Assembly (NCBI GenBank): GCA_949294095.1
Contig: CASFFZ010000001.1
Coordinates: forward strand, 372,001 to 436,000
Reading direction: 5' to 3'
From: an uncultured bacterium
Lineage (GTDB): Bacteria; Elusimicrobiota; Elusimicrobia; Elusimicrobiales; Elusimicrobiaceae
DNA: 64,000 nt
The notes below the pieces were generated by a model. It was given only the letters and a program-made list of their open reading frames with translations. It ran no database searches and was not told where the DNA came from. Below, in pieces: positions 10,692 through 12,008 of this stretch. Within the stretch, counting starts at the first letter, position 1; each line of letters starts with the position of its first letter. Position numbers and translations under genes: made by a program.

Positions 10692-10916
10692 ATGGCAGAA
10701 AAAGTACTCAAAGTTGGAATGGACCGCGAAGACGGCTTCCTCTACTACATTGACAAAGACGGCGATATCGCCCGCGTGCAAATGGCCAGAGGCGGCAAAA
10801 AAGGCGGCAAACCGAAAAAAGTAGAAAAATGCGGTATCAAAAAAGAAAAAGGATATCTGTACTTCTTGGATAAGAAGGGCGATATTTCCAGAGCTAAAAT
10901 GGTAAACGCTAAATAA
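10692..10916 (+). CDS. 74-aa protein with two copies of a GYLYFLDKKGDISRAKM-type motif
   Basis: This is a small basic soluble protein with a strong AAGGAGGA ribosome site. It is an internal duplication: KVGMDREDGFLYYIDKDGDI at the start and KKEKGYLYFLDKKGDISRA at the end. The two copies are joined by a Gly/Lys linker (RGGKKGGKPKKVEK). Each copy could form a two- to three-stranded beta unit. Similar duplicated small proteins are, as I recall, found in several phyla without a known function. It has its own terminator and stands alone, which suggests high, independent expression. No function assigned. Confidence 0.8.
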   Translation: MAEKVLKVGMDREDGFLYYIDKDGDIARVQMARGGKKGGKPKKVEKCGIKKEKGYLYFLDKKGDISRAKMVNAK

Positions 10917-10924
10917 AAGGATTT

Positions 10925-10955
10925 AAACACCCCGCGCTCGTGCGGGGTGTTTTTC
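10925..10955 (+). terminator. Terminator of the 74-aa protein gene
   Basis: CACCCCGC/GCGGGGTG stem, 6-nt loop, then TTTTT. Confidence 0.9.
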
Positions 10956-10982
10956 AAACGCGGTATCCGCGCGCACACGTTT

Positions 10983-11076
10983 TTTGCGCGGACTAACCGT
11001 CCGACGCAAAGGGGCGCATCTCGCATTGTACGACATCACGCAGTGCCTCAGCGTTTTGCGCCTCTTTTTATAGAGT
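10983..11076 (+). other. Structured non-coding segment ending in a T-run
   Basis: Two imperfect hairpins are visible. The first (10983-11010) pairs TTTGCG with CGCAAA and GGAC with GTCC. The second pairs GGGGCGCA (from 11011) with TGCGCCTC and, inside it, GCATTG with CAGTGC; it is followed by CTTTTT. It could be a second terminator or the 3' part of a small RNA. I see no convincing promoter in front of it and no gene in it. Confidence 0.3.
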
Positions 11077-11106
11077 TTTTTCTTCCCGTATGTTTCCGGC
11101 GGGGGG

Positions 11107-11134
11107 TTGAATTTTCTCCAATCGCGCCTACAAT
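11107..11134 (+). promoter_or_regulatory. Sigma70-type promoter upstream of the structured region
   Basis: TTGAAT (11107-11112), a 16-nt spacer and TACAAT (11129-11134). Transcription would begin near 11141, some 315 nt before hpf and ahead of hpf's own promoter. Confidence 0.5.
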
Positions 11135-11140
11135 TACTAT

Positions 11141-11380
11141 ATCCGACGTACCCGGAGGCGCATCAAATCATCTTTCATCCTAAATCGCAGCGGTTTCCCG
11201 CTGGCAGCGGCCGGCCCATCGGGGCCTGTTGGCTGCATCCGTTTTCTGTTCCGCGCCAGGCGGAGGGAGTACTCCTTATTTGTTTGCCGGCGCAACTGCC
11301 CCACAGGGTTTAGCATCCGGTAGATCAGGCCGGTAACGCCGTTTCAACACCGGCTTCCCGTACGCGCCCGCGCGCGGGTT
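11141..11380 (+). ncRNA. Candidate structured non-coding RNA upstream of hpf
   Basis: About 240 GC-rich nt with no believable reading frame, placed between two promoters. Visible helices: CAGCGG/CCGCTG with a TTTC loop (11188-11203); GCAGC/GCTGC enclosing GGCCC-ATCG-GGGCC (11204-11236); GCCGGT/ACCGGC (11329-11354); CCCGCG/CGCGGG (11367-11378); and a possible long-range GGCGC/GCGCC pairing (near 11157 and 11253). I looked for RNase P, SRP, tmRNA and tRNA signatures and found none. The position before a long-form hpf/raiA gene recalls the raiA-motif RNA of other phyla, but I cannot show sequence similarity. Confidence 0.4.
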
Positions 11381-11383
11381 TCA

Positions 11384-11412
11384 TTGACAGGGGGCCTGAT
11401 TAATGGTTTAAT
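11384..11412 (+). promoter_or_regulatory. Promoter of the hpf-hprK-rapZ-PTS-lepA operon
   Basis: A consensus TTGACA (11384-11389), 17-nt spacer and TTTAAT (11407-11412). The ATG of hpf follows about 45 nt later behind a GGAGG. Confidence 0.7.
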
Positions 11413-11456
11413 AACTCTACGGGGGAATCTCTCGCAATTACTTATACGGAGGAATT

Positions 11457-12008
11457 ATGGATATTAAAATTACGGCCAAAAACATCAAATTGACTCCGGC
11501 CATCAAAGAATTTATCAATACGCGCGTGGGGAAAGTAGAAAACTTTTTTGACAATATCGTTTCCGCGCAGGTGCTGATCTCGGTAGAAAAGAAAATCAAT
11601 CAGCGCGCCGAAATCATCTTGCACACCGGCGCCAAAACCACCATCAGCGCCAGCGCCGTGGAAAGCAACCTCTATAAAGCCATTGACGCCGCGGCCGTAA
11701 AAGCCGAAGCACAGGCCAAAAAAATTAAAAACAAAGCCAAAGCCCGCAAAGTAAGCAAAAAATCCGTTAAAGAAGCCGACATCAATCCGTTTGCCGAACA
11801 CGTGCTTTTGCCGCAGAACGACGTAAAATTTTCCGTCATCAAGCAGGTAGAGGTCTCGCCCATGAACCCGGAAGACGCCGCCTACGAAATGGAACGGCTG
11901 GGATACTCCTTCTGGATGTTCCTGGACGAAGATTCCAAGCAAATCAACCTGATTTTCAAACGCTTGGACGGCACCTACGGTTTAATCAAACCGATTAAAA
12001 AGAAATAA
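11457..12008 (+). CDS. hpf: Ribosome hibernation-promoting factor, long form
   Basis: The protein is 183 aa. The N-terminal ~100 residues are the HPF/RaiA ribosome-binding domain (MDIKITAKNIKLTPAIKEFI, then the beta-alpha-beta-beta-beta-alpha pattern). A Lys-rich linker follows. The C-terminal ~60 residues (VKFSVIKQVEVSPMNPEDAA to KRLDGTYGLIKP) are the dimerisation domain found only in long HPF. Long HPF joins two 70S ribosomes into inactive 100S dimers in stationary phase. It is the first gene of the PTS operon and is preceded by GGAGG and a good promoter. Confidence 0.97.
   Translation: MDIKITAKNIKLTPAIKEFINTRVGKVENFFDNIVSAQVLISVEKKINQRAEIILHTGAKTTISASAVESNLYKAIDAAAVKAEAQAKKIKNKAKARKVSKKSVKEADINPFAEHVLLPQNDVKFSVIKQVEVSPMNPEDAAYEMERLGYSFWMFLDEDSKQINLIFKRLDGTYGLIKPIKKK

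Follow-up and report, generated by a model that had tools for sequence, protein, structure and literature searches.

A conserved promoter and 5' element upstream of hpf in a genus of Elusimicrobiaceae: a possible tandem-promoter regulatory leader

Background

Tandem-promoter leaders and attenuators comprise an upstream promoter, a conserved leader 5' end and a hairpin or terminator located before the gene's own promoter, while GGA motifs are the targets of CsrA. In Escherichia coli, CsrA is described as controlling ribosome hibernation genes at the post-transcriptional level (PMC10746276). The raiA-motif RNA or ModT (RF03072) is an abundant, stable, trans-acting transcript which probably has its own promoter and whose location near raiA/hpf is frequent but not universal. 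By the account in PMC11706538, raiA genes adjoin ModT in 66% and comFC in 74% of cases, ModT acts in trans while being found near raiA, and its fold is a conserved multi-stem core with two pseudoknots.

The sequence analysed here (the window) is a stretch of 64,000 nucleotides from an uncultured bacterium of the family Elusimicrobiaceae, in which a promoter-led, structured RNA analogous to the raiA-motif RNA had been predicted directly upstream of hpf. The region, which begins with a putative promoter (P1), shares with the raiA-motif RNA its location upstream of hpf/raiA and, probably, a promoter of its own, but it has no conserved complex core and its strong matches are found in one genus only. 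As in the E. coli CsrA system, control of hibernation may be concerned; the genome of the window, however, has no PF02599 (CsrA) match. The layout is that of the tandem-promoter attenuators, but good support for a terminator is limited to a subset of the related loci, here termed rumen-type.

Results and discussion

The hpf locus and its surroundings

The window is derived from a 1.48 Mb assembly of 13 contigs which is 92.7% complete. The closest hpf relatives belong to uncultured Elusimicrobiales MAGs, with HPF identities of up to 100%, and a more distant relative (HPF 77%) carries the label Candidatus Avelusimicrobium, the name of a genus in the Elusimicrobiaceae. We infer that this is probably also the genus of the window, a genus of gut bacteria. 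The features of the locus are listed in Table 1.

Table 1. Features between P1 and hpf in the window, with mean pairwise identities in the group of the window when this is taken as 6 or as 11 loci
Feature	Position	Strand	Description	Basis	Identity, 6 / 11 loci (%)
Flank upstream of P1					38 / 24
Promoter P1	11107-11134	+	-35 TTGAAT (11107-11112), 16-nt spacer, -10 TACAAT (11129-11134)	scan; alignment of relatives; profile R1	79 / 75
Conserved 5' element	11139-11180	+	CCGACGTACCC-GGAGG (11154-11158)-CGCATCAAATCATC	alignments; identity profile	92 / 84
Variable GC-rich middle	11181-11350	+	several hairpins by prediction, their arms partly conserved in the five relatives of alignment A4	folding; 35-53% identity	53 / 35
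CG-rich inverted repeat	11357-11378	+	CCCGTACGCGCCCGCGCGCGGG, directly 5' of the P2 -35	81-83% identity in window group	83 / 81
Promoter P2 (hpf's own)	11384-11412	+	TTGACA (11384-11389), 17 nt, TTTAAT (11407-11412)	sequence; relatives	99 / 91
hpf 5' leader					91 / 88
Hairpin opening the P2 hpf mRNA	11420-11434	+	CGGGGG-AAT-CTCTCG	49 distinct leaders	
Shine-Dalgarno of hpf	11448-11452	+	GGAGG, 4 nt 5' of the ATG	sequence	
hpf	11457-12008	+	long-form hibernation promoting factor, 183 aa	PF02482 (7.6e-19); PF16321 (3e-15)	80 / 74 (third codon positions)

The long-form hpf gene expected downstream of the gap was found with both of its domains, as was the separate hpf promoter, P2. The gap is preceded by a 74-aa ORF (10692-10916) and a hairpin with a U-run (10925-10952), and hpf is followed by genes for HPr kinase and RapZ. 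That the gap contains no gene was also borne out, as only mechanical ORFs occur in it. Both ORFs that fill it, one of 68 aa (11107-11313, + strand) and one of 59 aa (11137-11316, - strand), are disrupted by frameshifts or stops in the nearest relative (L122), and for these two a protein-coding reading of the gap was rejected. Further ORFs of 78 aa (10947-11183) and 93 aa (10745-11026, - strand) occur in or near the gap, and tRNA was the sole Rfam match in the whole window at gathering scores. The 74-aa ORF product is lysine-rich, has an internal repeat (GFLYYIDKDGDIARVQM / GYLYFLDKKGDISRAKM) and shows no Pfam match, and a near-identical ORF is the nearest one 5' of hpf in eight of the 76 loci examined (L037, L041, L043, L051, L073, L081, L086 and L087). 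By rough nearest-ORF calls, some of them spurious, the ORFs preceding P1 vary by locus while P1 remains with hpf.

Recurrence and conservation of P1

P1 matches the promoter consensus at nine of 12 positions, and two promoter-like sites were seen by scanning where 1.9 were expected, so that in the window alone P1 is within chance. It aligns, however, with 34 relatives and scores an E-value of 1.9e-14 against R1, a profile based on sequence alone that covers P1 and the 5' element and was built from 35 sequences, the window among them. P1 is credible because of this recurrence, and the predicted -35/-10 pair is very probably real. Comparison of the regions upstream of hpf in the relatives showed that P1 and the 5' element recur across the genus, contrary to a lack of conservation, and this recurrence supports the predicted independent transcription upstream of hpf.

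A scripted pattern (TTGAWT- or TTGTTT-like -35, 16 or 17 nt, TAYACT-like -10) called P1 in 94 of 122 hpf loci, representing 54 distinct sequences. Sixteen of the 28 loci without a scripted P1 fall in a more distant group (L089-L094 and L096-L105; HPF 58-63% identical), five are cut by contig ends (L004, L011, L044, L050 and L055) and two belong to one genome (L009 and L141), where R1 does detect P1. The remaining five (L046, L052, L082, L083 and L085) are genus-like and include 600 nt of upstream sequence, and the lack of a scripted P1 in them counts against reading the region as a leader of hpf.

Alignment A1 took in 35 of 50 hpf loci and excluded the groups without GGAG, four TTGTTT-type loci in which GGAG is present (L077, L079, L081 and L084) and three with miscalled P1s (L062, L085 and L095). 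When at most the 70 best candidates were scored per genome, strong matches to R1 (E ≤ 4.2e-8) were obtained in 41 of 66 genus genomes, and among the matches listed each genome has one strong place except G012, which has two, both at contig ends. Weaker matches (to E 0.05) extend to 65 of the 66 genomes, many of those listed spanning P1 alone. In a sample of 99 genomes of the phylum, with at most 47 candidates scored per genome, strong matches were restricted to the genus (14 of 21 genomes; 0 of 78 outside it), while weak matches occur in 36 of the 78 others with a best E-value of 1.0e-3. An exact pattern (GGAGGNNCATCAAANAA) found in 13 of 61 genomes was discarded as too strict, since it missed the window itself.

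The hpf gene is located just 3' of the strong R1 match in 30 of 32 loci, and the other two (L114 and L116) run out at contig ends first. The linkage is thus complete in the 30 loci that reach far enough, compared with the lower ModT-raiA adjacency, although it is partly built in as R1 was made from hpf-upstream regions. No strong copy away from hpf is among the matches listed in the whole-genome search, in which weak extra copies could be missed since no more than 70 (genus) or 47 (phylum) first-look candidates were scored per genome.

Relative to the hpf third codon positions, the block identities (Table 1) are about equal in P1, higher in the 5' element and lower in the middle and in the flank upstream of P1, the middle being the least conserved part between P1 and hpf. 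P1 is thus kept no better than the third positions in the groups of the window, and when the window is compared with L122 alone, the middle (88%) is at least as well conserved as the 5' element (86%); both observations count against the leader reading. The identities of the 5' element and of the third positions are 73% and 81% in group B, 72% and 64% in group C, 68% and 69% in group E and 53% and 65% in group G, respectively, so that the element falls under the third-position level in groups B and G, a further point against that reading. In all four groups P1 (71-80%) stands out from its upstream flank (25-38%).

The 5' element and its GGAGG motif

GGAG occurs 10-33 nt 3' of the -10 in 44 of the 54 P1 loci, mostly followed within a few bases by a C-AAA(U/G)A core, while its absence from the other ten counts against the leader reading. 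In these ten loci (L071-L074, L076, L080, L086-L088 and L106) P1 is of the TTGTTT type, and a near-invariant hairpin sequence (CCGCGACGCGCCGMCACCGGCCCGCGG) common to them lies 5' of P2.

A short frame (XXC AAA GAA NNY stop) is present in many loci, but a leader peptide was rejected, as none of the 44 GGAG loci has an ATG, GTG or TTG 3-10 nt past GGAGN. In L054, L064, L065, L067 and L070 an ATG lies one base past GGAGG, which is too near, and by eye the stop of the short frame is lost in the window, L006, L033 and L049.

The GGAGG of the P1 RNA is the same sequence as the hpf Shine-Dalgarno. An exposed GGAGG was ruled out as a simple statement, since the motif is mostly predicted to be paired (mean unpaired probability 0.01-0.68), and by reading of the predictions its partner in 12 of the 44 loci is a pyrimidine tract before UACGCG on the 3' side of the RNA. 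It is very unlikely, though conceivable as a model, that the P1 RNA is a Shine-Dalgarno mimic whose startless, conserved GGAGG would dock on the 16S anti-Shine-Dalgarno and be masked by the 3' pyrimidine tract; if true, this would couple ribosome occupancy to the adjoining hibernation gene. A 14-base anti-Shine-Dalgarno pattern gave no match in the window's own assembly, and docking of ribosomes on this GGAGG is possible, but not supported. A CsrA-sequestering RNA would need a host that encodes CsrA, but PF02599 had no match in the same 92.7% complete assembly, compared with matches in three of 14 control genomes.

The variable middle, its folding and terminators

The several strong helices of the original prediction are of ordinary stability and carry little weight. 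For the window RNA at 11135-11400 the folding energy is -100.9 kcal/mol (z -0.58), a value reached by 54 of 200 dinucleotide shuffles, positions 11140-11383 give z -0.80 with 15 of 100 shuffles as good, and the reverse strand gives z 0.06. Folds that beat their shuffles do occur in three relatives from the window's group (L005, L006 and L038; z -2.4 to -2.8). Over the 54 loci the mean z is -1.05, and 14 loci lie below -1.64 where about three were expected, namely eight rumen-type loci, the three just named, L059, L069 and L071. Hairpin arms are, by eye, conserved in four near relatives, where both sides change together (GCAGC/GCUGC versus GCGGC/GCCGC), whereas the version in the window and L122 is in a different register.

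A strong structural signal is found in the nine rumen-type loci (L013, L053, L054, L058, L063, L064, L065, L067 and L070), in all of which a hairpin with a U-run beats 40 of 40 shuffles. Outside this type the same holds for L074, while the terminators of L005, L006 and L061 beat 39 of 40, the first two being from the window's group; in L006 the terminator hairpin lies directly 3' of the 5' element. Seven of the 14 pairs of the rumen-type terminator stem show changes on both sides, and the covariation score is 0.409, compared with 0.215 when shuffled and at most 0.167 when slid; this is support rather than proof, as the nine sequences are related. In the window, 18 of 40 shuffles do as well as the highest-scoring terminator of the whole region, and no terminator stands out from shuffles in 41 of the 54 loci, the window included. 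The prediction of a discrete RNA ending before the hpf promoter is thus well supported by the terminator and covariation of the rumen-type loci but not by the window. Covariation among the relatives was likewise found in that stem, while the middle drifts, its length differs between groups, and no core fold, multi-helix or otherwise, is shared by the 11 loci.

In six of the nine rumen-type RNAs (L013, L053, L064, L065, L067 and L070) the terminator loop contains UAGCA or CUAGC, which by eye could pair with UGCUA or GCUAG in the 5' element. A pseudoknot or kissing contact is possible; GCUAGC is also self-complementary.

The CG-rich repeat, P2 and the leader of hpf

In many loci CG-rich repeat arms (TACGCGCG...CGCGCGTA) lie just 5' of the P2 -35; their loop and their spacing to P2 vary. 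The repeat could be a weak terminator-like RNA hairpin, a cruciform or a Z-DNA-prone block; in the window only UUUC follows the stem. The copy at hpf is the sole perfect match of the pattern in its own genome. A regulon operator was rejected, as 11 places with up to two mismatches were found in that genome compared with seven for a reversed control pattern, and TTGACA follows only the hpf copy when 140 bases are inspected per place.

Outside the coding region, no block is better conserved than P2 in the groups of the window. As P2 is near-consensus, hpf may not need P1, which also counts against the leader reading. Alignment A2 comprised 49 of 52 distinct P2 leaders, in 47 of which the hairpin opening the P2 mRNA has a stem of at least five pairs, a count anchored on CGG...CG, so that pairing at the anchor is forced. 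Of 37 leaders, 29 have a standard fifth pair (G-U, A-U, C-G or U-A), and across pairs 0-4 the standard cells number 223 of 233, compared with 52-69% when the partner is slid by 1-2. An automatic consensus fold missed this hairpin because MAFFT had misaligned it. It is also found in loci without P1.

Relation to known RNAs

The covariance-model check for the raiA motif was negative, with RF03072 exceeding the Rfam gathering cut-off in none of the 66 genus genomes (at most the 30 best first-look candidates scored per genome). Matches under the cut-off occur in four of these genomes (best 23 bits, G009), on contigs other than those of P1. The only valid positive control was the class of a Lachnospiraceae record, where the model exceeded its cut-off in eight of 60 genomes; it did so in none of 14 standard genomes, three Firmicutes loci or the genomes of the latter. 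A lax Rfam search of the region (E up to 10) gave 12 sub-threshold matches, with raiA absent from them. The proposed structured analogue of the raiA RNA is weakly supported, in that position and promoter are alike but the Rfam model misses it and the helix-bearing middle drifts. A divergent raiA-motif RNA in a new phylum would accord with these likenesses and with the length of the region in the window (about 245 nt, compared with 209 positions in the Rfam model), but given the searches and the lack of a conserved multi-helix core it is extremely improbable. For 6S RNA (RF00013), no match was found in the whole genome of the window at E up to 1, compared with matches in six of 14 control genomes, four of them over the cut-off.

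Interpretation

The region may tentatively, at chances close to but short of even, be read as a tandem-promoter, cis-acting regulatory leader of hpf that is sometimes released as a short RNA. P1 would start a transcript, presumably near 11140, of which the first 40 nt are conserved and which would then cross the fast-drifting hairpin region and reach P2 about 245 bp downstream. In some lineages, the rumen type above all, an intrinsic terminator located 5' of P2 would release the P1 RNA as a short molecule of about 100 nt, and hpf would be reached from P1 only by read-through, attenuation proper being a guess; elsewhere, perhaps also in the window, the P1 RNA would run on into hpf. An active P1, a leader with control over hpf and the direction of such control are all inferred from sequence.

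The main rival, which is rather unlikely, is a stand-alone gene for a trans-acting sRNA whose 5' end would carry a conserved seed (GGAGG...CAUCAAA) and whose 3' end would form a hairpin, its linkage to hpf reflecting co-regulation. It would account for the promoter, the conserved 5' end, the presence of in effect a single copy and the terminators that beat every shuffle in 10 of the 54 loci and nearly every one in L005, L006 and L061, and it has a precedent in raiA/ModT, which is reported to act in trans from a location near raiA (PMC11706538). Trans action, however, needs no such linkage as that seen in 30 of 30 loci, most loci have no outstanding terminator and the middle is not conserved. 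The constant linkage favours cis action, while the rumen-type terminators before P2 imply that P1 would make a separate short RNA there. Those same terminators would cut P1 off from hpf and so tell against P1 as a plain second hpf promoter for another growth state, in which the 5' element would be an initial-transcribed or DNA-binding site and the RNA would have no role. The distance of 10-33 nt between the -10 and GGAG would also be unusual for a fixed operator. This explanation is unlikely, although the freely drifting middle, the ordinary fold in the window and the mostly paired GGAGG, from which an RNA binding role is not evident, are as it would predict.

Conclusions

Strong conservation of P1 and the 5' element is confined to one genus, and the region has no Rfam match, while its general kind is known. 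No paper on small RNAs of the phylum was found in the literature searched on Elusimicrobiota. Read as a regulatory leader of hpf, the region would be a conserved means of controlling ribosome hibernation in Elusimicrobiota, with exact sites to mutate. It also suggests that regions encoding an RNA 5' of hpf are able to evolve outside the raiA-motif family.
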